A DNA stretch of 64,000 bases from Aromatoleum toluclasticum ATCC 700605. Lineage in GTDB: Bacteria > Pseudomonadota > Gammaproteobacteria > Burkholderiales > Rhodocyclaceae. The notes beneath the pieces were generated by a model that saw nothing but the letters and a program-made list of their open reading frames with translations, had not been told where the DNA came from and did no database searches. How positions within the stretch are numbered: position 1 is the first letter of the stretch; every line of letters begins with the position of its first letter. The stretch lies in NCBI RefSeq assembly GCF_000378245.1, contig NZ_KB899498.1, forward strand, positions 1 through 64,000, written 5' to 3'. Made by a program: the position numbers and the translations under genes. Of the stretch, positions 38,372-64,000 are shown in pieces.

Positions 38372-38692
38372 ATGAAGAAGACAACGAAGTTCTCCCCCGA
38401 AGTGCGCGAGCGCGCCGTGCGCATGGTGTTCGAGCAGCGCGGCGAGCACGGATCACAGTGGGCGGCGATCGAGTCGATCGCCGGCAAGATCGGCTGCAGC
38501 GCGCAGACGCTGTCGAACTGGGTTCGGCGGTACGAGCGCGACACTGGGCAGCGTGACGGGGTCATCACCGCGGAGGCGGCCCGCGTCAAGGAACTCGAGC
38601 GCGAGGTGCGTGAGCTGAAGAAGGCCAACGAGATCCTGCGCCTGGCCAGCGCGTATTTCGCGCAGGCGGAGCTCGACCGCCGCAACAAGTGA
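38372..38692 (+). CDS. IS3-family transposase subunit OrfA
   Basis: A 106-residue HTH protein of transposase_8 type ([34 protein letters not shown]) with a C-terminal leucine-zipper-like coiled coil ([20 protein letters not shown]). OrfB starts in the overlapping -1 frame, the arrangement that allows frameshifted OrfAB production. The frame itself is intact. Confidence 0.92.
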
Positions 38693-39299
38693 TGAACGGT
38701 TTCATCGACACGCACCGCGAGCGCTTCGGGGTCGAGCCGATCTGCAGAGTTCTGCAAGTCGCCCCGTCCGGTTATCGACGCGCCGTGGCTCGCCGCCGCG
38801 ATCCGGCCTTGCGCTGTGAGCGGGCTCGTCGCGACGAGGTGCTGGCTACCCACGTTGAGGGGATCTGGCAGGCGAATTTGCAGGTGTATGGAGCGCGCAA
38901 GGTGTGGCGACAGTTGCAGCGCGAGGGCATCGAGGTCGCCCGCTGTACCGTCGAGCGGCTGATGCGGGCCCAAGGGCTGCGTGGTGCGATGCGAGGCAAG
39001 GCGGTACGGACTACTCGGCCCGATCGAGCAGCCCCCTGTCCGCTCGATCGCGTCAATCGACAGTTCGCCGCGCAGCGCCCGAACCAGCTTTGGGTCTCCG
39101 ACTTCACGGATGTCTCGACCTGGCAAGGTTTCGTGTACGTCGCCTTCGTTATCGACGTCTTCGCCCGCTACATCGTGGGCTGGCGCGTCAGCCGATCCAT
39201 GAACACCGAATTCGTCCTCGACGCCCTGGAGCAGGCCCTGTGGGCGCGCCAACCCGAACGCAACGCCTTGATCCACCACAGCGACAGTAAGAATATAAG

Positions 39300-39560
39300 G
39301 GCCAGTTGTTCCTGGTGGTCTGACCCTCACAGCGATCGACCAATAGGGCTGACCGGTGCTGCAGGTGTTCCAGGTAGCCTGACTCACACTCAGATCGACC
39401 TTGTGTCTTTCCCCGGACCTGTCGGCCGCCTGGGAACATCATGCAGCGAGGCTGCGCCTCGCCGATGCGTGTGACCCGAGAAGGGCCTGACATCCTGTCA
39501 CGTTACTGTCCTGTCCAGGTGTTCGGTCGTGGCCAAGCCGTGCTCATGCCAATCAAGCTT
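39300..39560 (+). ncRNA. Candidate IS110 bridge RNA region
   Basis: The non-coding part of the element contains two related 35-base segments, 39307-39341 and 39366-39400. They match at 27 of 35 positions and share TGTTCC, CTGAC and GATCGACC blocks. IS110 bridge RNAs have similar target-binding and donor-binding loops, in this order. The first segment contains CACAGCGA (39328-39335), identical to the eight bases just left of the insertion junction (39277-39284). The exact RNA ends and fold were not computed. Confidence 0.55.
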
Positions 39561-39571
39561 GGAGACCGATC

Positions 39572-40651
39572 ATGCAGGATGGTCAGCAAGACGGCGCACG
39601 CGTGGTGGGTGGCGTCGATACACACAAGGATCTTCATGTTGCTTCGGTGGTCGATGAGCATGATCGCGTTCTCGGAAACCAGTGTTTTGCAACGACGCGT
39701 CAAGGCTACCGACAGATGCTGCAATGGATGCGATCCTTCGGCACACTCGAGCGGGTCGAAGTTGAGTCGACAGGCACCTATGGTGCTGGCCTGCTGCGCC
39801 ACCTGCAAGCTGCGGGGGTGAAGGTGCTCGAAGTCACCGCACCCGATAAGCAAGATCGCCGTCGTCGTGGCAAAGACGATGATATCGATGCCCAGAATGC
39901 GGCTCACGCGGCGTTCGCCGGCAGGCGGACGGTCGCGCCAAAGACCCGCGACGGAATGATCGAATCGTTGCGCGTATTGAAAGCCTGTCGCAAGACCGCG
40001 GTGGCCGCACGCCGAGTGGCCTTGCAGCTGATTCACAATACCATCGTCTGCGCCCCCGATGAGTTGCGTGACGTATTACGCAAGCTGACTCGCATGCAGC
40101 TTATCCGCACACTTGCGGGCTGGAGGCCTGACCTGTCCGATTATCGCAATGTGTCGTCTGCATACCGCATTGCATTGAAGTCTCTTGCGCGCCGCTACCT
40201 TGAACTGCACGACGAAATTGCCGACCTGGATTCCATGATCGGCGCCATCGTTGAAGAACTCGCACCAGAGCTCGTAGCTCGAAATTCGATCGGTCACGAG
40301 TCCGCCGCGCAGCTTCTGCTGACAGCCGGAGACAATGTCGATCGTATTGGCTCGGAGGCAAGCTTCGCCGCGTTATGCGGTGTGAGCCCCGTCCCCGCGT
40401 CATCTGGACAGGTCACTCGCCACCGATTAAATCGAGGCGGCGATCGCGCTGCCAACAGCGCACTGCACATCATCGCTATCGGCCGGCTTCGAACTGATCC
40501 TCGCACCAAGGACTATGTTGCCCGCCGCATTGCCGAGGGCCATTCAAAGCTTGAAGCCATCAGATGCCTGAAGCGGTACATCGCCCGGGAAGTCTATACA
40601 CTCCTTCAACGACGGAACCTTGAGATCAACCGAACCCGGATTTCGGCTTGA
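39572..40651 (+). CDS. tnp: IS110-family transposase (DEDD recombinase)
   Basis: A 359-residue recombinase. The N-terminal RuvC-like DEDD domain has GGVDTHKDLH, VESTGTYG and GKDDDIDAQNAA. A helical middle precedes the C-terminal Transposase_20 domain with GVSPVPASSGQ (candidate catalytic Ser) and RGGDRAANSALHIIA. It appears complete and functional. It directs RNA-guided insertion, here into a conserved position of an IS3 transposase gene. Confidence 0.93.
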   Translation: MQDGQQDGARVVGGVDTHKDLHVASVVDEHDRVLGNQCFATTRQGYRQMLQWMRSFGTLERVEVESTGTYGAGLLRHLQAAGVKVLEVTAPDKQDRRRRGKDDDIDAQNAAHAAFAGRRTVAPKTRDGMIESLRVLKACRKTAVAARRVALQLIHNTIVCAPDELRDVLRKLTRMQLIRTLAGWRPDLSDYRNVSSAYRIALKSLARRYLELHDEIADLDSMIGAIVEELAPELVARNSIGHESAAQLLLTAGDNVDRIGSEASFAALCGVSPVPASSGQVTRHRLNRGGDRAANSALHIIAIGRLRTDPRTKDYVARRIAEGHSKLEAIRCLKRYIAREVYTLLQRRNLEINRTRISA

Positions 40652-40976
40652 CAAACAGAAGGGCGTCCGGGGAAGCCAGTATGCCAGCCACGCTTATCAG
40701 GCCCACCTGGCCGCATACGGCATGAGGGGATCGATGTCGCGCAAGGGTAACTGCTGGGACAACGCCCCGACCGAGAGCTTCTTCAACAGCCTGAAGAACG
40801 AGCGCGTTCATGGCGCAGCCTACGCGAATCGCAGTGAGGCCACGAGCGATCTATTCCAGTACATCGCCGTATTTTACAACCGGAGCCGCCTCCACTCCAC
40901 CTTGGGATATCTGTCGCCGACCATGTTCCTGCAGAACTGGATCGAACGACAGGATCAGCAAGAAATGGCAGCATGA

Positions 40977-55820: not shown

Positions 55821-57452
55821 TCAGCGTTTGCTGACCTTGATGTCGGTCTCTTCCAGATCCCAGGTCGTTGGCGTCTTGCCCTCTTCACGCAGCTGGTACT
55901 TCAGCACCCGGCCCTGCGGGTTCTTCGGCATCGAGCTGCGGAATTCGATATAGCGGGGGAGGGCGTAATAGGGAACGGAGTCGATTGCCCACTTGAACAA
56001 TTCTTCGGGCATGAGGGCGCTGCCGGGCTTGAGAATCGCGGTGACCTTGACGTCATCCTCGCCCTTGTCGGAAGGCACGGCGTGGACCGCAACTTCTTCG
56101 ATGGCCGGATGCGCTGCGAAGGCGGCTTCCATCTCGAAGCTAGAGATGTTTTCGCCGCGCCGGCGCAGGTAGTCCTTCTTGCGGTCCACGAAATAGAAGA
56201 AACCTTCTTCGTCGAATTTTCCGATATCGCCGGTGTGGAACCACATGTTGCGCAGCAGCTTCATGGTGTCGGCGGGGCGTCCCCAGTAGCCCATGAACAT
56301 GATGTCGGGGCGCAGGGGGCGAACGACGATCTCGCCTGGCGTGTTGGCCGGAAGCTCGCGATCGAGGTCGTCGACGATGCGCACGTCGAAATCGGGGATG
56401 CGCTTCCCGGAGGAGCCGGGCGCTGCGTACTCGCCGCCGGGTAGCGAGGTAATGACGCTCGCTTCGGTGAGGCCGTAGCCATTGCCGCCCACCTGCTTGG
56501 CGCCGAAGCGTTCGCGCCAGATCCTCTTCGATTCCTCGGTGAAGGGATTGCCGCGCACGGTGTGGATCTGTCCGATGCAACGTTTCATCGACTCGTTGTC
56601 CGGCGCCTGGGCGAGCAGTCCGCCCATGCTGCCGAGGATCGACGCGATGGTGGCGCCGCTGCGCTCGACTTCGGGCCAGAAATTGGATACCGAGAAGCGC
56701 TGCACGATCGCGACCCGGGCGCCGACCATGATGTTCGAGAGGATGCCGACACACAGCGCGTTCATGTGGAAAAGCGGCAGCGGGGTGATGGTGACGTCAT
56801 TCTCGGTTGCCGGTCCCGCGCGCAGCTGGAGGCGGGCGAGATTGCACATGTAGTTGTAGCTCAGCATGCAGCCCTTGGACGGCCCGGTGGTGCCCGACGT
56901 ATAGACGATGCAGGCGAGGTCCCAGGGATTCGGCTTCGTCTCGATCGCGTCGTCGCGCCGGCCGCGGTGCTCGTCCAGCGGCGCGATGCGGGCGCGGCAC
57001 TCCGGGATCTTGGTGAGGTGGGCGCGGTGAAGGATCAGCTGCATTTCCGGCAATCCGTCCGCCACCTGCGCGATGCGTTCGACGTAATCCGCCTCGCAGA
57101 TCACGATTGCAGCCTGCGAGTCCGCGATCTGATGGCGGAGGAACTCGCCCCGCAGCGCAGTGTTGACGGGAACACTCACGGCACACAGTTTGTTGATGGC
57201 GAGCCAGGCCACGACTGCATCGATGTTGTTGTCGAGCATGCTCAGGACGGTCTGCCCGGCCTGGACGCCCAATGCTGCGAGCGAGTGGGCGAGGCGCGTC
57301 GAAAGCTGGTCGACCTGGCCGTAAGTGTAAAGCTCGCCGCCGAAGTCGAGCAGCACCCGCTCGGGGTGCTTTGCAACTGCACGGTCGAGTGCCGCGATGA
57401 CCGTATCCTGTGGGCCGACCGACCAGGTTTCCTGATTGCCCATGCCTGCCAT
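55821..57452 (-). CDS. Acyl-CoA ligase (AMP-forming)
   Basis: A 543-residue member of the ANL superfamily that activates a carboxylic acid as acyl-AMP and then as acyl-CoA. Motifs in order: YTSGTTGPSKG (P-loop), GYGLTEAS, HTGDIG, DRKKDYLRRRGENIS and the catalytic Lys in PQGRVLKYQLR. Sequence style resembles CaiC-like and medium-chain ligases, but the substrate cannot be assigned. ATG at 57452 follows AGGAGACATCAC. It is divergent from a TetR gene, with two operator-like palindromes between them. It is presumably the entry or a mid-step of the pathway encoded on its right. Confidence 0.92.
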   Translation of the reverse strand: MAGMGNQETWSVGPQDTVIAALDRAVAKHPERVLLDFGGELYTYGQVDQLSTRLAHSLAALGVQAGQTVLSMLDNNIDAVVAWLAINKLCAVSVPVNTALRGEFLRHQIADSQAAIVICEADYVERIAQVADGLPEMQLILHRAHLTKIPECRARIAPLDEHRGRRDDAIETKPNPWDLACIVYTSGTTGPSKGCMLSYNYMCNLARLQLRAGPATENDVTITPLPLFHMNALCVGILSNIMVGARVAIVQRFSVSNFWPEVERSGATIASILGSMGGLLAQAPDNESMKRCIGQIHTVRGNPFTEESKRIWRERFGAKQVGGNGYGLTEASVITSLPGGEYAAPGSSGKRIPDFDVRIVDDLDRELPANTPGEIVVRPLRPDIMFMGYWGRPADTMKLLRNMWFHTGDIGKFDEEGFFYFVDRKKDYLRRRGENISSFEMEAAFAAHPAIEEVAVHAVPSDKGEDDVKVTAILKPGSALMPEELFKWAIDSVPYYALPRYIEFRSSMPKNPQGRVLKYQLREEGKTPTTWDLEETDIKVSKR

Positions 57453-57528
57453 GTGATGTCTCCTGTCCCGATTCGCCGTGTTGGGGTGATGTGCAGCTTT
57501 CGTTGTGATGGCAAAACATAAACACAAA

Positions 57529-57543
57529 TTGAAAAACTGTCAA
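57529..57543. promoter_or_regulatory. Operator-like repeat, TTGAA-N5-GTCAA
   Basis: An imperfect member of the TGAC-N5-GTCA set found at three other places in this cluster, with the same 5-base spacing and one arm mismatch. It lies 77 bases upstream of the acyl-CoA ligase start. Confidence 0.4.
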
Positions 57544-57610
57544 ATATAAGGAAGCGTAATGATCATTTTGATGGGGGGGCGGATGTTCGTGCGGTTGGGG
57601 CACGCTACAA

Positions 57611-57624
57611 TCACCGATCGGTGA
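57611..57624. promoter_or_regulatory. Perfect 14-bp palindrome, candidate TetR operator
   Basis: TCACCGATCGGTGA is fully self-complementary and sits 17 bases before the TetR start at 57642, in the divergent region with the acyl-CoA ligase. This is the classic location for an autoregulatory TetR-family operator. It differs in sequence from the TGAC-N5-GTCA sites. Confidence 0.65.
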
Positions 57625-57641
57625 ATTCTCGGGGAGCGGAG

Positions 57642-58331
57642 ATGGCGGAAGCAGTCGAGGCGGCAAAGGCAAAGGTGAAGAAGCCTCGCGCGACCGCCCC
57701 TGCGAAGGAGGGCGCGGAGCCGGCGCCGGTCAAGGCCGTGAAGGCGGTTCGCCGGAACAGGCGGTCCGAAAGCACGATCCTGGGCATTTTCGACGCTACC
57801 GAAGCGGTGGTTCTCGAGTCCGGAGCAGACCGGGTAAACATCCTCGACGTTTGTCAGACCGCAGGCATCTCGCGTGGGACGTTCTACCGGTATTTTTCGT
57901 CGCAGGACGATCTCTTGGACGCGTTTTCACGTCACCGGCGCGATCGTTTCCATGCTGCCCTGATCGAGGCGACTGCCCCGTATGCCGATCCGGACGAGCG
58001 TTTCGACGCCGTATTGCGATTCGTCGATGATTACCTTGAGCGCGGCAATGCACGACGGCTGCTCGTCGTTGCTCCGGAGTACGCGATGCGCTGGCTGCAG
58101 CGCATCTTCCCCGACTCGGTGATCCGGTTCCAGGACGTGCTTGGGCCGGTCTTCGATGCGTGGGAGTCGCGTGCGGGAATCAAGATCGACCGCGAGCTCA
58201 CCTGCGAGCTGCTGGTCCGATACATCCTCAGCGAGATTCTCGTCCCCGCCGGCCCTGAGCGCCGAAGCCTGCCGCGCCGCCTCGAGCGGATGTTCGCCAT
58301 GCTGATGCAGGGCCGCGTTTCCCGCCGCTGA
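57642..58331 (+). CDS. TetR-family regulator
   Basis: A 229-residue regulator. A basic Ala/Lys-rich leader (about 1-38) precedes the HTH (about 50-95: VNILDVCQTAGISRGTFYRYFSSQDDLLDAF split over this span). The remainder is an all-helical ligand-binding and dimer domain. GGGGAGCGGAG precedes the ATG; an in-frame GTG at 57621 lies inside the palindrome and is not preferred. It probably represses itself and the divergent acyl-CoA ligase through the palindrome just upstream. Confidence 0.9.
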   Translation: MAEAVEAAKAKVKKPRATAPAKEGAEPAPVKAVKAVRRNRRSESTILGIFDATEAVVLESGADRVNILDVCQTAGISRGTFYRYFSSQDDLLDAFSRHRRDRFHAALIEATAPYADPDERFDAVLRFVDDYLERGNARRLLVVAPEYAMRWLQRIFPDSVIRFQDVLGPVFDAWESRAGIKIDRELTCELLVRYILSEILVPAGPERRSLPRRLERMFAMLMQGRVSRR

Positions 58332-58406
58332 GCACGCCGCGTCCGCTCGCCGCTGCGGGCGAGCGGGCGAGCGGGTGTGCGGCATCCGTCCGTCTTCCAC
58401 TGCGCT

Positions 58407-58421
58407 TTGACTCCGCGTCAA
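58407..58421. promoter_or_regulatory. Operator-like repeat, TTGAC-N5-GTCAA
   Basis: TTGAC at 58407-58411 and GTCAA at 58417-58421 form a perfect inverted repeat that extends one more base on each side. It lies 107 bases upstream of the flavoprotein gene. The same arms and spacing recur at 60909-60923. Confidence 0.55.
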
Positions 58422-58528
58422 ACCGCCCCGCCGTGTCCGGCCGGGGCGCTGTGCTTCAATCGGTTGGTTCGTCGAATCGGACGCATTTCACCAACAAGCG
58501 CATCCGGCACACCCCGGAGGGAGACAGA

Positions 58529-60109
58529 ATGAGTGGCGCAAACAGTTATGACGTGGCGATCGTCGGTGGCGGGCACAATGGCTTGGCAGCCGCCTGTTAT
58601 CTGGCCGAGGCAGGTAAACGTGTCATCGTCATCGAGGCCCGCGAGAAGATCGGCGGCATGGCCTCCAGCGGTTACCTGATACCGGAGGCGCCCCGGCATC
58701 TGATCAACCCCTGCGCGCTTGATCTCATGTCGCTCAGGGTTCATCCCATGATGCCGCAGGAGCTGCAACTCGAGCGCCATGGGTTTCGTCAGGTCGAAAT
58801 GTCCCCGGGATACGTGTACGTCCATCCGGATGGCAATTCGCTGGTGTTCTGGCGCGAGCCGGAAAAGACTGCGGCGGAGATCCGGCGCTTCTCGTCCCGA
58901 GACGCGGAGGAGTTCCTGGCGCTGATGAAGCTCGTGGATGCCTTCATCGACATGGCCATCCCGATGATGCGTGTCGACCCCGCGCAGCGCAACCTGGGCG
59001 CGAAATGGCAGGCCCTGAAGGCGGTCTTCAGGAACCGCCATCTGAAACCGGAAATTATGGCCCTCATCGGCAGTCCGGCGTACACGTCGATCATGGAGCG
59101 CTTCGAGCATCCGGTCGTACAGTCGGCGCTGTCCTGCCTGCTTGGCGCGGCCGGACCCATCGCGAACGACGCGACGGGGATCTACTTCGCGCTGTTGGGC
59201 TTCATCCATCGCTTCGGGCTGGGTCGCGCCGTGGGCGGGACTCAGGCTTTGTCGGATGCACTGGCAGCCCGGTTGCGCGAGCTGGGTGGGGAGATTCTGG
59301 TGTCTGCGCCGGTGGCGGAGATCATTGCCGGCGATGGTCGGGCGAAGGGGGTGCGGCTCAAGGACGGACGTGTGCTGTCGGCGAAAGCCGTGGTGGCGTC
59401 GATCCACCCGAAGATGGCGCTGGAAATGGTTACGCCCGGGGCGCTCGATCGGCGCACGCTTACTCGCGTAGCGCTTGCGCCGGCCAACGGCCACGGGGCT
59501 TCGCCACTGAAGGTCGATGTCGCGCTCAGTGGCCAGGTGAACTACCGCCGCGTCGAAGCCCTGCGGGCCGACGGGCTGAGTCTGCGCAAGAGCGTGCTCC
59601 TGATCGGCACCTCCGACGCCGTGCTCGACAACTTCCGCTGCGCCGCGCGCGGCGAGGTGTCGAAGCTGCCCTACATGTGGATCACGGTGCCGACTGCTGT
59701 CGACCCTGGGCAGGCGCCCGAGGGGCAGGACGTGGCTTACCTCTATCCCGTCGCGACGCCGGTCGAGCCGCGCGAAGGATGGGATGCCATCAGGGACCGG
59801 GTAGGGCAGACGGTCATCGACCAGGCCGCCGAATACATGCAGGGTCTCAAGGAATTCGAGATCGGTCGTCGGGTCGAGGCCGCGCCGGACCTGGAGAAAC
59901 GGCTTAATGTGCATCGCGGCTGCGTGGTGCATGTGGATACGAGCACCACGCGTTCCGCGATGATGAGGCCGGCGGCGGGATTGGGTGGGGACAGTCTGCC
60001 GGTTGCAGGACTCTTCCTCGGAGGCGCGGGCATCCACCCGGGTGGTGGGGTCAACGGCTTGCCGGGACGCATCGCCGCCTGTCGGGTGAACCGTTTCCTC
60101 GCACGCTGA
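58529..60109 (+). CDS. FAD-dependent oxidoreductase, phytoene-desaturase-like
   Basis: A 526-residue flavoprotein of the amine oxidase/CrtI superfamily. The dinucleotide-binding start is YDVAIVGGGHNGLAAACYLA, followed by VIEAREKIGGMASS; near the C-terminus GLFLGGAGIHPGGGVNGLPG forms the second FAD contact. Bacterial CrtI-like proteins of this group occur outside carotenoid pathways and dehydrogenate lipid or terpenoid-like substrates. No crtB or crtE gene is present, so carotenoid synthesis is unlikely. CGGAGGGAGACAGA precedes the ATG at 58529. It is a candidate dehydrogenase of the P450 pathway. Confidence 0.9.
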   Translation: MSGANSYDVAIVGGGHNGLAAACYLAEAGKRVIVIEAREKIGGMASSGYLIPEAPRHLINPCALDLMSLRVHPMMPQELQLERHGFRQVEMSPGYVYVHPDGNSLVFWREPEKTAAEIRRFSSRDAEEFLALMKLVDAFIDMAIPMMRVDPAQRNLGAKWQALKAVFRNRHLKPEIMALIGSPAYTSIMERFEHPVVQSALSCLLGAAGPIANDATGIYFALLGFIHRFGLGRAVGGTQALSDALAARLRELGGEILVSAPVAEIIAGDGRAKGVRLKDGRVLSAKAVVASIHPKMALEMVTPGALDRRTLTRVALAPANGHGASPLKVDVALSGQVNYRRVEALRADGLSLRKSVLLIGTSDAVLDNFRCAARGEVSKLPYMWITVPTAVDPGQAPEGQDVAYLYPVATPVEPREGWDAIRDRVGQTVIDQAAEYMQGLKEFEIGRRVEAAPDLEKRLNVHRGCVVHVDTSTTRSAMMRPAAGLGGDSLPVAGLFLGGAGIHPGGGVNGLPGRIAACRVNRFLAR

Positions 60110-60142
60110 GGTGGCGCGCGTCGCGCAAGGGGGCCGGCTCTC

Positions 60143-60862
60143 TCAGGCCGCGTCGGGCGGTGTCTTCGCCGGGGCGTCCGGCCGCGTGAGCGGATGCTGG
60201 GCGCTGCGCTCGCGCTCCACGGCAGCCAGCACGAAGTCGACCGCGAAGCGTCGCCATGTGTCCGCGTCGTCGGCGTTCGCCACGTCCAGGCCGCACAGGG
60301 TGACGACGGTGTAGCGGCTGACGAAGGCGCTGGTGGTCACCTGCGCGGCTGCGGCGAGGAACAGGTCCGGGTCGACGTTCGCACGAAAATCGCCACTTTC
60401 GGCCCCGCGCGCGAGGACGCTGCGCATCTTGCGCTTGAGCTCGGGAGCGAGGTCGACAAAGCTGTTGCGCGGCGTGGCGTGGCTCTCGTGGTAGCGGATC
60501 CCTTCCTGTGCGAGCGCGCTCAGCATGGGGTCGCAATAGGGCCGGATCATGTGGTTGAGGAGTGCCCGCAGCGCGTCACGCGGCGCCAGGTGATCCAGTT
60601 CTACCGCGACGAGTTCGCCCATGGTCGTCGCGGACGAGTCTTCCAGCACGCAGGCGAAGAGTTCCTCCTTGCTTCGGAAGTAGTGATAAACGAGCTGTTT
60701 TGTGACGCCGGCGGCCTGGGCGATATCGTCGATGCGGGCGTCCGCCAGTCCCTTGGCGGCGAATTCTCGTCGCGCCGCAGCGCTGATGCGGCGCAAGGTC
60801 TCCCTCTTATCGGGTGCTGCGCGTTCGGTCGACTTGCTCGGGTTTCGGGAAGAGCTGGGCAT
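60143..60862 (-). CDS. TetR-family regulator
   Basis: A 239-residue regulator with HTH at about 25-70 (RIDDIAQAAGVTKQLVYHYFRSKEELF split over about 43-69) and a helical ligand domain resembling TetR_C subgroups that respond to hydrophobic acids or CoA esters. A Pro/Ala/Arg-rich tail closes it. It is divergent from the P450 gene, and the inverted repeat at 60909-60923 lies 47 bases before its start. It is the best candidate for the protein that binds the TGAC-N5-GTCA repeats, because that repeat sits at its own promoter. Confidence 0.9.
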   Translation of the reverse strand: MPSSSRNPSKSTERAAPDKRETLRRISAAARREFAAKGLADARIDDIAQAAGVTKQLVYHYFRSKEELFACVLEDSSATTMGELVAVELDHLAPRDALRALLNHMIRPYCDPMLSALAQEGIRYHESHATPRNSFVDLAPELKRKMRSVLARGAESGDFRANVDPDLFLAAAAQVTTSAFVSRYTVVTLCGLDVANADDADTWRRFAVDFVLAAVERERSAQHPLTRPDAPAKTPPDAA

Positions 60863-60908
60863 GTTGGGAGATTTCGTTTCCGCTCGTTGTCCGCGAAGCT
60901 TAGCGCAG

Positions 60909-60923
60909 TTGACTCGAGGTCAA
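60909..60923. promoter_or_regulatory. Operator-like repeat, TTGAC-N5-GTCAA
   Basis: TTGAC at 60909-60913 and GTCAA at 60919-60923 are exactly complementary. The flanking bases also agree with the copy at 58407 (TTGACTC before the centre, GTCAAAC after). It lies between the divergent TetR and P450 genes, 133 bases before the P450 start. Confidence 0.6.
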
Positions 60924-61056
60924 ACGACAGTCGCTGTCGAATCGGCCACTGCTTCGATTTGATGGTTAGGATGTGGACACTTTTGCAAAAAATGCGCATG
61001 TGTCTGGCGGTTGTTTCTCGATAACCGCAGCAACGGGCGCCACACAGGAGACAACC

Positions 61057-62331
61057 GTGAGCACCGATATCCTCAACCTCGACCTCGAAACCGCATACAC
61101 GGCCGTATCGGAAACCTACAAGGGCAAAGGCGACATTCACGCCGCGTGCCGGGAGATGCGCGGCAAGTCCCCGATCTACGTCGGGGACTTCATCAAGCAG
61201 TTCGGCGTGCCGACGAACGCCGGCCTCAAGCAGGGCACTCGGCCCACGTTCGCTCTGTTCGGCTACAAGGACGTGATGAACGTGCTGCGTGATGCCGACA
61301 CCTACACCAACGGATTCATTGCCGAGGGACTGGGGGCATTCTTCGATGGCCTGATCATTCTCGCGATGGACGGCGAGCAGCACCGGCGCGTGCGGGCCTT
61401 GCTGCAACCGGCCTTCATGCCGGATACGGTCAACAAGTGGCGGGGCCAGATCGATCACGTGATCCGCAAGGACTTCCTCGAGCCGATGGTGCCGCAGAAG
61501 AAGGCGGATCTGATGGACTTCGGCCTGTACTTCCCGATCCGTGAAATGTACGCGCTGATGGGTTTCCCGACCGACGACACCGAGAGGTACAAGAAATACG
61601 CGGCATGGACCCTGGCGATGGTCGGAGGCAACCAGGTCGACCCCGAGAAGATCGATGAGGCGCGCCGTAATGCCGGGATTGCGGTCAAACTGCTCTATGA
61701 CGCCATCCAGGAGGTGGTGGTCAAGCGCCGCGCCGAGGGCTCCCACGGCGACGACATCATCGGGCGCCTGCTGCGCGCCGAATACGAGGGCGAGAGGCTC
61801 GACGACCACCAGGTCATCACCTTTGTGCGCTCGCTGTTGCCGGCGGCTGGCGAGACGACCACGCGCACGTTCAGTTCCGTCATGACCTTGTTGCTGACGA
61901 CGCCGGGGCTGGTCGATCGCGTCAGGGCCGACCGCTCGCTGGTGCCCAAGCTGATCGACGAAACCGTCCGCTATGAACCGGTGGCGACCTTCAAGGTGCG
62001 CGAGACGGCCAAGGAGGTGGAACTGCACGGCGTAAAGATCCCCAAGGGGTCGTTCGTGCAGTGCATGGTGGTGTCGGCGAACCGGGACGAGGAGGTGTTC
62101 GAGAATCCGGACCAGTTCGACATCGACCGCAAGCTCAAGCCTTCCTTCGGTTTCGGGTTCGGCCCGCATATGTGCATCGGGCAGTTCGTTGCGAAGGTGG
62201 AACTCAATTGCGCGATCAACGCGATCCTCGATCTTTTCCCGAACCTGCGGCTGGACCCGGACAAGCCCGCACCGGTCATCGAAGGTGCCCAGCTGCGCGG
62301 CGCGTCCCACGTGCATGTGATCTGGGACTGA
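61057..62331 (+). CDS. Cytochrome P450 monooxygenase
   Basis: A 424-residue soluble bacterial P450. The oxygen-activating I-helix has AAGETTT, the K-helix ExxR is in DETVRYEP, and the haem loop is FGFGFGPHMCIGQF with the thiolate ligand C373. It inserts one oxygen atom into a C-H or C=C bond, receiving electrons from a ferredoxin and reductase not seen in the window. GTG at 61057 is preceded by CAGGAGACAACC; the frame opens further upstream at 60973 but without similarity or SD. It is first in a plus-strand set with the next two genes. The substrate is unknown; terpenoids, steroids or fatty acids are possible. Confidence 0.93.
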   Translation: MSTDILNLDLETAYTAVSETYKGKGDIHAACREMRGKSPIYVGDFIKQFGVPTNAGLKQGTRPTFALFGYKDVMNVLRDADTYTNGFIAEGLGAFFDGLIILAMDGEQHRRVRALLQPAFMPDTVNKWRGQIDHVIRKDFLEPMVPQKKADLMDFGLYFPIREMYALMGFPTDDTERYKKYAAWTLAMVGGNQVDPEKIDEARRNAGIAVKLLYDAIQEVVVKRRAEGSHGDDIIGRLLRAEYEGERLDDHQVITFVRSLLPAAGETTTRTFSSVMTLLLTTPGLVDRVRADRSLVPKLIDETVRYEPVATFKVRETAKEVELHGVKIPKGSFVQCMVVSANRDEEVFENPDQFDIDRKLKPSFGFGFGPHMCIGQFVAKVELNCAINAILDLFPNLRLDPDKPAPVIEGAQLRGASHVHVIWD

Positions 62332-62396
62332 ACCCGGGCACCGTTCCCGCCCGTCGCGTGCACGGGCGGCTTCCCGACCTCTTCCGGAATTCAACG

Positions 62397-63428
62397 ATGA
62401 GAATCTTCAAGACCGTTCCCCAACGGGGCGATTTCGCCTATCAATGCCTGGTCGGACCGCAGAAAGTCAGCGGCGCCAAGCTCGCGGACCTGCGTGATCA
62501 TTTCGGGCTCAAGCTCACCAAGCACATGCCCTTCGGCAGCGTGCGCGACGAAGAAGGGCACATCTATTCCTTCGTCCGTGCCGTAAATGCGCCTGGCAGC
62601 TCCCCCAACCCGACGAAGTTCATCTATCAGTCCACCCGGATTGACGAGCGCCACATCCGCGTCGACAAGGAAAGGATCCTGCCTCGCGCGATGACGATGT
62701 TCCCTAAACGCTGGCTGGAAGGCGATACCGCCTGCTGGTCCAGCCTGGACGGCGAATCCGGCGAGCCGTGGCTGATTACCGCGTCGGGTGAGCGCTTCAG
62801 CTGGAAGGAGGAGGGTCTTCTCGACATCGGCGGGCCGCTTATCGGCAACGGCATGCAGTGGTACCTGCCCGGCGAGGATTGGGGCACCTTCTACGTGTCG
62901 CAACTCTACGACGTGTCCGGCATCTGCGAGGGGCGTCCGGTGAAGGGCGTCATCGCGCTCGACCAGGCGTGGATGGCCGACGGCGGTGCCATTCACTTCC
63001 AAAAGGACCTCGTCGTAAACCACAAGATGCACGTCATCTGGTGGTCGTTCGCGACGATCTACAAGGACGGGACCTGGGATGCGGGCTCGTTCATGGTCGG
63101 CCATGAGAATCTGGGCTACGCGATCTTCCAGAACCACAAGGGCGAGATCTATTGCACGACGGATATCGAGGGCGAGGTGCGACACAAGGAGGGAAGTTAT
63201 TTCGCCGAAACTGCCCGCATCGTGGTAGATGGCCGGGAGGAGTGGGAGTTCCTGCCTGATCCGAAAGGCGAAATGATGGACTTCGTCGGCGGGTTCCCGA
63301 TCACCGCGCAACAGGAGGGCCGCTGGAGGCGTGTGGGTGATACGCGCGAGCCGGATCGCTGGATGGCCTGGGGCGAATCGGACCGCCGCAACGGCAGCGC
63401 GCGCAATGTGCGCGGCAGCGAACTCTGA
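62397..63428 (+). CDS. Unrecognised 343-residue protein in the P450 operon
   Basis: I do not recognise this family with confidence. The protein has no signal peptide or membrane segment. It is rich in Trp, Gly and Asp, with many alternating beta-strand patterns (HVIWWSFATIYKDGTWDAG, GKPRVE-like turns, EWEFLPDPKGEM), which suggests a lipocalin- or AttH-like double beta-barrel for binding or converting a hydrophobic substrate. It starts 65 bases after the P450 stop, with only a weak SD-like GGAA. Its tight association with a P450 and a SnoaL-like protein suggests a step in the same pathway. Confidence 0.7.
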   Translation: MRIFKTVPQRGDFAYQCLVGPQKVSGAKLADLRDHFGLKLTKHMPFGSVRDEEGHIYSFVRAVNAPGSSPNPTKFIYQSTRIDERHIRVDKERILPRAMTMFPKRWLEGDTACWSSLDGESGEPWLITASGERFSWKEEGLLDIGGPLIGNGMQWYLPGEDWGTFYVSQLYDVSGICEGRPVKGVIALDQAWMADGGAIHFQKDLVVNHKMHVIWWSFATIYKDGTWDAGSFMVGHENLGYAIFQNHKGEIYCTTDIEGEVRHKEGSYFAETARIVVDGREEWEFLPDPKGEMMDFVGGFPITAQQEGRWRRVGDTREPDRWMAWGESDRRNGSARNVRGSEL

Positions 63429-63465
63429 CCGTTCGATGAACACGAGACACGAAAAAGGAACCACC

Positions 63466-63822
63466 ATGAGCATCGACGCAAAGGTCATCGAGCATTTCCT
63501 GCACACACAGCTTGCGCGATGGAACGCCTCCGACAAGGAAGGTTTTCTGGCTGCTTACCGCGAAGTCGCACCAGGCGGTCTCACCATCGAATACGTCGGT
63601 CGACCGTCCGCTGACGGGTGGCCGGTGCTTGAAGCGATGTGGACCGCGCAGAACGCCAAGATCGGCATCGAGGAGGTCGCGATGATCATCAATGGCTGCG
63701 AGGCGGCCTGTCACAACCGCAACAGGGTGAAGGGGACCGATGTGACGATCGAAACCATCGAGCTCTATTGCTTCGACGAGGGCGGCAAGCTCCACGTGCG
63801 CTACTTCATTCGTCAGCCCTGA
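63466..63822 (+). CDS. SnoaL-like/NTF2-fold protein
   Basis: A 118-residue protein with the cone-shaped NTF2 pattern: N-terminal helices (VIEHFLHTQLARWNASDKEGFLAAY split over about 8-32), a short strand (GLTIEYVGRP), then three strands ending FDEGGKLHVRYFIRQ. SnoaL-like proteins act as isomerases, hydrolases or binding proteins on polycyclic or steroid-like substrates. AAAAAGGAACC precedes the ATG, 37 bases after the previous gene, which suggests the same operon. Confidence 0.82.
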   Translation: MSIDAKVIEHFLHTQLARWNASDKEGFLAAYREVAPGGLTIEYVGRPSADGWPVLEAMWTAQNAKIGIEEVAMIINGCEAACHNRNRVKGTDVTIETIELYCFDEGGKLHVRYFIRQP

Positions 63823-63900
63823 ACGGGCAGTAACGGCACGGTCGGGAAAAACCGCGATCGCGAGCGTCCTCTCTACATCCTGAGGCAGGTGCGGCGTGTT

Positions 63901-63915
63901 CTGACACCCGGTCAG
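63901..63915. promoter_or_regulatory. Operator-like repeat, CTGAC-N5-GTCAG
   Basis: CTGAC at 63901-63905 and GTCAG at 63911-63915 are complementary and extend one more base on each side. It has the same TGAC-N5-GTCA core as the sites at 58407 and 60909. It lies 78 bases after the SnoaL-like gene and probably belongs to a transcription unit beginning beyond the window. Confidence 0.45.
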
Positions 63916-64000
63916 ATCACGCCGTTCTTGTTTCGGACGGGATTCAGTCGTATATTTGAACAGAAATGCAAAAACTGAACAGATACCGACGAGAGGCTGT

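Follow-up and report, generated by a model that had tools for sequence, protein, structure and literature searches.

The window analysed here comprises bases 1-64000 of contig C8 (NZ_KB899498.1) in the 5.92-Mb genome of Aromatoleum toluclasticum ATCC 700605, and the contig was read on to 153 kb. Towards the right end of the window lies a group of genes for an acyl-CoA ligase, two TetR-family regulators (TetR1 and TetR2), an FAD flavoprotein, a cytochrome P450 and two conserved proteins (Table 1). An earlier sequence-only reading had found the inverted repeat TGAC-N5-GTCA between these genes at 57529, 58407, 60909 and 63901, and had proposed a regulon with TetR2 as the likely binding protein. 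Our comparison with related genomes upholds this idea for a longer form of the repeat, the 15-mer TTGAC-N5-GTCAA (box 1), which probably is the operator of TetR2. The sequences and flanks reported for the four sites are all present, but only 58407 and 60909 are exact copies of box 1, with 57529 deviating at one position and 63901 at two. The copy at 60909 is located in the divergent intergenic region of TetR2 and P450, where it precedes the TetR2 start codon by 47 bp and the start of P450 by about 130 bp; the copy at 58407 lies between TetR1 and the flavoprotein gene. A finer consensus of the element reads TTGACYCNNRGTCAA.

Taken alone, the window makes a modest case for the repeat. The excess of exact TGAC-N5-GTCA cores was borne out with four copies against 0.91 expected, a number reached in two of 100 shuffles, but one-mismatch versions show no excess (18 versus 22.3 expected), which leaves the copy at 57529 without statistical weight. 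The fourth exact core, unlisted in the sequence-only reading, is found at 39487-39501 between open reading frames (ORFs) that look transposase-like by eye (38372-40976). As such window-only statistics are too weak to decide, comparative tests were used in their place. A scan of the whole genome for box 1, as the earlier reading had suggested, returned three exact sites, at 58407, 60909 and 102524 of contig C8, a number close to chance. All three lie inside 44 kb, for which the probability under uniform placement is about 2e-4. It is thus this clustering, together with the conserved positions beside TetR2, that is remarkable about box 1, and not the number of its copies.

For the comparison, genome contigs were scanned for P450 loci, of which the best 80 of 184 were used, and TetR2, searched for in the family, was detected in nine of 297 genomes, one of them being the window's own. 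Order-wide searches with 300 evenly drawn genomes each recovered TetR1 and TetR2 only in the window's own genome. Box 1 occupies the divergent region between TetR2 and P450 in Aromatoleum, Thauera, Massilia and relatives, and many Pseudomonas. An exact copy is present in 43 of 57 such regions in the fuller list and in 39 of 53 in the controlled test, which omits four exact regions (L015, L016, L017, L070) after removal of overlapping or rival matches. Because the sampled genomes may contain repeats, similar regions were also counted as groups, and the exact box is present in 14 of the 24 non-redundant ones, compared to 0.010 expected from dinucleotide shuffles. The spacing is strictly kept, as gaps of 2-4 and 6-9 bases between the arms occur in none of the 53 regions.

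The second conserved position is the region between TetR1 and the flavoprotein gene, with an exact box in 11 of 18 cases (5 of 11 groups). Here we could also use a score matrix trained on the sites between TetR2 and P450; scores at those sites are circular, while other promoters stand outside the training set. All 15 distinct flavoprotein regions score 15.8-21.7, far above the 99.99th percentile of the background (8.3); empirical p values were not used because the background contained true sites. In L024 and L036 the flavoprotein boxes read TTTACCTGAGGTAAA and TTTACCTCAGGTAAA, both arms being altered symmetrically (TTTACC...GGTAAA), as expected if the element serves as the site of a dimer. The inner bases Y-C..G-R are conserved as well. 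In line with this conservation, the proposal that promoters of the P450 cluster share an operator is supported for 58407 and 60909, and not for 57529 and 63901.

The occurrence of box 1 follows that of TetR2. Among the 80 P450 loci, 57 have a TetR2 homologue and 23 do not; an exact box is found in 41 of the former, but in only one of the latter. This sole locus (L069) ends inside the flavoprotein gene, beside which TetR2 would be expected. Within the genus, all four TetR2 genomes (the window's own, G340, G524 and G540) have exactly three box 1 sites each, compared to counts of 0, 0, 1, 0, 0, 0, 0 and 0 in eight genomes without TetR2. Furthermore, nine Burkholderiales genomes that contain TetR1 and lack TetR2 (E 1e-25) have no 15-mer in their P450 loci. 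Based on the pattern within the genus, the contrast between loci with and without TetR2 and these nine genomes, box 1 is assigned to TetR2. Of 15 further TetR2 homologues, seven have a strong box within 1.5 kb. The Stutzerimonas genome G593 (L209, L210) encodes three TetR2 homologues; two boxes (scores 19.3 and 14.5) occur near the homologue at C8:86623, and none near that at C8:135425.

TetR2 has the TetR_N DNA-binding domain and a conserved short palindrome in its own promoter region, as is typical of a TetR-type regulator. Its recognition helix, TKQLVYHY, was compared across all 67 homologues that tblastn detected in these loci, and 60 of them read TKQL[VI]YHY. The seven variants, TKPMIYYH in L018, TKQLIHHY in L038, L049, L051 and L062, and TRQLIYQY in L090 and L092, are all from loci without an exact box 1. 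In the loci with the Tyr-to-His exchange the best sites are altered, namely TTGACGCAGCGTCCA (L038), TTTACCGCGCGTACA (L049) and TTTACCCCACGTACA (L051, L062), with arms of the type TTGAC..GTCCA and TTTAC..GTACA. This correlated change of helix and box ties the operator to TetR2 rather than to a neighbouring protein.

The third box 1 site is situated about 42 kb from the other two, outside the window. On one side, a DUF35-type gene (a label assigned by reading, without a family search) and a thiolase/lipid-transfer gene are encoded on the minus strand; on the other side, SDR, FAH and ring-hydroxylating dioxygenase alpha and beta genes follow on the plus strand. The gene caller had placed the site inside a plus-strand ORF (102143-102562), which we rejected; since the opposite-strand DUF35-type gene starts about 25 bp away, the site is treated as intergenic. 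G340, G524 and G540 likewise have their third site between the DUF35-type and SDR genes (L142-L144). Of 21 genomes that contain the FAH gene, four have an exact third site, namely three of the same genus and G360. The spacing between the box 1 sites differs among genomes of the genus, ranging from about 42 to 108 kb.

Based on these findings, we propose a TetR2 dimer as the binder of the 15-bp palindrome, both in the region between TetR2 and P450 and in front of the flavoprotein gene and, in this genus and the relative G360, also between the DUF35/thiolase and the SDR/FAH/dioxygenase genes. Bound TetR2 would most likely hold off the promoters of TetR2, P450, flavoprotein and, in the genus, the dioxygenase operons, until TetR2 is released by a substrate-derived ligand, either a diterpenoid or the corresponding CoA thioester. 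Sites, conserved positions and spacing, and the association with TetR2 and its recognition helix are direct observations. Binding by TetR2, repression rather than activation, and the release by a ligand are what the TetR family in general would lead one to expect.

Several observations weigh against this proposal. The number of box 1 copies is not raised in the genome (three versus about 2.1 from base composition and two for a reversed control), nor is it enriched in the genomes of 17 relatives (48 sites versus 68 for the reversed control). The third site is one mismatch off in four of the 21 FAH-gene genomes (L159-L162) and absent in 13, including the six genomes of the Massilia group, while G523, G481 and G578 carry further 15-mers away from P450; among four stretches around such extra copies, only one, in G481, has cluster-like genes nearby. 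Moreover, 16 of the 57 loci with a TetR2 homologue have no exact box 1, although eight of them contain a one-mismatch version in the region between TetR2 and P450; L049, L051 and L062 have weak sites only (10.0-10.7), L051 being Pseudomonas abietaniphila ATCC 700689 with a score of 10.7. Ten of these 16 loci keep the usual helix, among them L066 with a match in seven of ten positions, so that the helix does not explain every loss, and the helix changes trace back to few lineages (L038/L049/L051/L062; L090/L092; L018) rather than to seven independent events. Eight of the 15 further homologues (L198, L203-L208, L210) lack a strong box within 1.5 kb. Six of them, two with in-frame stops, share 44-47% identity with TetR2, but L198 reaches 51% and L203 49%. 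The stops are found in L204 (Halopseudomonas laoshanensis) and L205 (Pseudomonas saliphila), one in each homologue, and neither has a box 1 nearby. Finally, TetR2 and box 1 move with the same island, and their co-occurrence is therefore partly linkage.

Box 1 could instead be bound by TetR1, as one copy lies directly downstream of the TetR1 gene and none of the 22 genomes searched, box 1 carriers included, lacks TetR1. This is quite improbable considering the nine TetR2-less Burkholderiales genomes, which do have TetR1 and yet no box 1 at P450, and the absence of a conserved box 1 between ligase and TetR1, where autoregulation would be expected. Likewise, the exact box is missing where the helix of TetR2 was found changed. 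TetR1 is also absent within the locus in 27 of 42 box 1 loci, a weak point, as it may lie elsewhere in the genome. A regulator encoded at a distance is a quite improbable binder, too, be it the IclR protein of the island or a global regulator. The IclR protein occurs in each of the 22 genomes searched and resembles the IclR-type DitR of dit clusters (PMC12628601), but the nine genomes without TetR2 contain it as well and lack box 1 at their P450 loci. The eight TetR2-less genomes of the genus hold a single 15-mer in total, so that no general regulon is seen there. That box 1 represents two opposed -35 elements, TTGAC being the -35 consensus, or mere chance, for which the unremarkable number of 15-mers in the genome and the one-mismatch cores below expectation in the window might be quoted, appears extremely improbable. 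The spacing control, in which no gap other than five bases is conserved, refutes it as a full account, and the conserved inner bases and the joint change of both arms in L024 and L036 point the same way.

It is also very improbable that all four sites of the sequence-only reading form one regulon, even though they are alike and located between genes of one cluster. Between ligase and TetR1, none of 11 distinct regions of relatives exceeds a box 1 matrix score of 2.7, and L020 and L022 have TAGAAAAACTGTCAA in place of the TTGAAAAACTGTCAA found at 57529 in the window. The copy at 63901 scores 4.1 and is found only in the near-identical relatives L019, L020, L022 and L094, but not in Massilia loci or L023. 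Both were rejected as box 1, since they are not conserved as such in relatives. What is conserved around the two discarded places is a second, different element of 25 bp, box 2.

Box 2 was found by side-by-side reading of the relatives' regions and corresponds to TNNACAS-N11-STGTNNA, a palindrome with an A-rich centre. The copy at 57519 is conserved in L019-L026, L028, L033, L036 and L094; it overlaps TTGACA-N17-TATGTT on the minus strand, by eye a plausible sigma-70 promoter of the ligase, which partly offers an alternative reason for its conservation. At the place equivalent to 63957, clearer palindromes occur in L024-L028, L033, L036 and L095. The copy at the P450 promoter is degenerate in the window (score 17.8), while full palindromes are present there in six Massilia-group loci (L024, L025, L026, L028, L033, L036).

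For counting, we used a hand-made score derived from sites already seen, with a cut-off of 19 and with local shuffles and the reversed pattern as controls. In C8:1-153 kb, ten places reach at least 19 (57519, 63957, 73556, 83840, 93545, 98852, 102560, 110463, 112068 and 136729) while 20 local shuffles gave 1.2 on average; the ten together span C8:57519-136753, and none lies left of 57519. The first nine are intergenic by gene calls, setting aside the wrong ORF at 102143, and the tenth lies just before a second dioxygenase alpha-like gene. This gene (L211; C8:135288-136682, minus strand, 464 amino acids) was named by its likeness to the first. The reversed pattern gave three matches versus 14 (both strands), and a looser pattern found 12 distinct places in the whole genome, six of them in C8:57-137 kb. 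In relatives, box 2 gave 108 matches versus 12 in shuffles, a count that includes matches in flavoprotein genes and treats near-identical genomes separately; several of them conserve the element between ligase and TetR1, at the promoter just beyond the window's right end and between the DUF35-type and SDR genes. Near TetR1 homologues there are 16 matches versus three, and none at ten of 23 loci. Candidate binders of box 2 are TetR1 and the IclR protein; as each is present in 22 of 22 genomes searched, presence cannot separate them. A paralogue of TetR1 (L006; C8:111369-112070) is flanked by two of the ten places, 110463 upstream of the preceding SDR gene and 112068 just after the paralogue itself.

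Table 1. Genes, box 1 and box 2 copies on contig C8 (positions up to 64000 lie in the window).
Feature	Position	Strand	Description
Acyl-CoA ligase	55821..57455	-	AMP-binding; profile matches
Box 2 copy	57519..57543	none	TAAACACAAATTGAAAAACTGTCAA; between ligase and TetR1
One-mismatch copy of the earlier repeat	57529..57543	none	TTGAAAAACTGTCAA; judged not box 1; inside box 2 57519-57543
TetR1	57642-58331	+	second TetR-family regulator (Pfam); candidate box 2 binder; 57% paralogue at C8:111378-111971
Box 1 copy A	58407..58421	none	TTGACTCCGCGTCAA; exact; between TetR1 and flavoprotein gene
FAD flavoprotein	58529..60109	+	amine-oxidase/phytoene-desaturase-like; profile matches; proposed box 1 target
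TetR2	60143-60862	-	TetR family; TetR_N (PF00440, E 1.2e-15) and TetR_C_29 (PF17938, E 1.4e-14); proposed box 1 binder
Box 1 copy B	60909..60923	none	TTGACTCGAGGTCAA; exact; divergent TetR2/P450 intergenic region
Degenerate box 2 copy	60974..60998	none	upstream of P450 gene; score 17.8, below the cut-off of 19
Cytochrome P450	61057..62331	+	profile match; proposed box 1 target
Conserved 343-aa protein	62397..63428	+	no Pfam/NCBIfam match; directly after P450 in most P450 loci
Small conserved protein	63466..63822	+	118 aa; no Pfam/NCBIfam match; 'NTF2' label a guess
CTGAC-N5-GTCAG copy	63901..63915	none	CTGACACCCGGTCAG; judged not box 1; upstream of a box 2
Box 2 copy	63957..63981	none	TGAACAGAAATGCAAAAACTGAACA; upstream of a carboxymuconolactone-decarboxylase-like gene starting past the window end
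IclR protein	C8:98950-99738		DitR-like; in 22/22 genomes searched
Third box 1 site	C8:102524	none	exact; outside the window, about 42 kb away; before dioxygenase-cluster genes

Concerning the nature of the island, dioxygenase alpha and beta, SDR, FAH isomerase, thiolase/sterol-carrier protein and the IclR regulator are co-located at C8:98950-106607, and the FAH orthologue is present in all 21 relatives searched. The P450 is 98% identical to those of Aromatoleum toluvorans and A. toluolicum and 78% to one of P. abietaniphila ATCC 700689 (L051), which we take to be strain BKME-9 and in which FAH lies about 17 kb from P450 on one contig. The P450s of dit clusters (DitQ/DitU) belong to the CYP226 family, of which the P450 here may be a member. 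The gene of the 343-aa protein is probably co-transcribed with P450. Published dit gene lists comprise a CoA ligase, the dioxygenase subunits ditA1/A2, dehydrogenases, the FAH-type isomerase ditH, the sterol-carrier/thiolase ditF, an MFS permease, the IclR regulator ditR and a P450 (PMC12628601, PMC10710418, PMC13063091). The island shares these gene types with the dit/tdt clusters of P. abietaniphila BKME-9, P. diterpeniphila, Paraburkholderia xenovorans LB400 and P. fluorescens F113, and is dit-like (abietane diterpenoid) by gene content. Of these strains, P. fluorescens F113 is reported to possess such an island and to grow on abietic acid (PMC3570484).

Among known systems, the nearest operator to box 1 is that of RutR, a TetR-family protein of Escherichia coli, whose arms are TTGACCA-N2-TGGTCAA. 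It is described as a roughly 16-bp palindrome (PMC10891134). In both elements the arms begin with TTGAC/GTCAA, but they enclose six bases in the RutR operator and five in box 1, and a gap of six occurs in none of the 53 regions between TetR2 and P450, compared to 39 with a gap of five. TetR2 itself gives a weak match to the NCBIfam RutR model (34.8 bits, cut-off 368), and RutR targets pyrimidine genes, whereas the putative targets of box 1 are catabolic genes of diterpenoid type. KstR and KstR2 are TetR repressors of large steroid ring-degrading clusters with short palindromic operators, the KstR operator differing from box 1 in sequence. Against the KstR model, TetR1 gives a weak match of 28.7 bits, far under the cut-off of 280, and TetR2 has no match at E 0.001. 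Box 2, in turn, recalls the IclR group 2 operators, given as TGRAACA-N1-2-TGTTYCA (PMC13273656); the arms are similar (TGAACA/TGTTCA in box 2), but box 2 has 13 bases between them instead of one or two.

While autoregulation of a TetR protein through a palindrome is of a known kind, the box 1 operator itself has no report in the literature searched, and a text search for the written motif yielded no matching paper. For resin-acid (abietane diterpenoid) catabolism, enzyme-level genetics exist, and in the literature searched no operator was described for the dit/tdt clusters. In this context, we lean slightly towards a two-layer operator code for the roughly 80-kb diterpenoid-type island, which would have travelled with the island between beta- and gammaproteobacteria. 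Box 1 and TetR2 would control the entry steps by P450, flavoprotein and dioxygenase, and box 2, with its arms 19 bp apart and located at ten or more promoters, would set the whole pathway, with either TetR1 plus its paralogue or the DitR-like IclR protein as binder. For a TetR dimer, a palindrome as long as box 2 would be unusual. Both predicted operators have named targets, and for one the recognition helix of the regulator shows a correlated change; together they amount to a directly testable regulatory map, and could help to find more pathway genes and to yield diterpenoid-responsive promoters. Besides, the island contains ORFs that look transposase-like by eye at C8:89541-92103.

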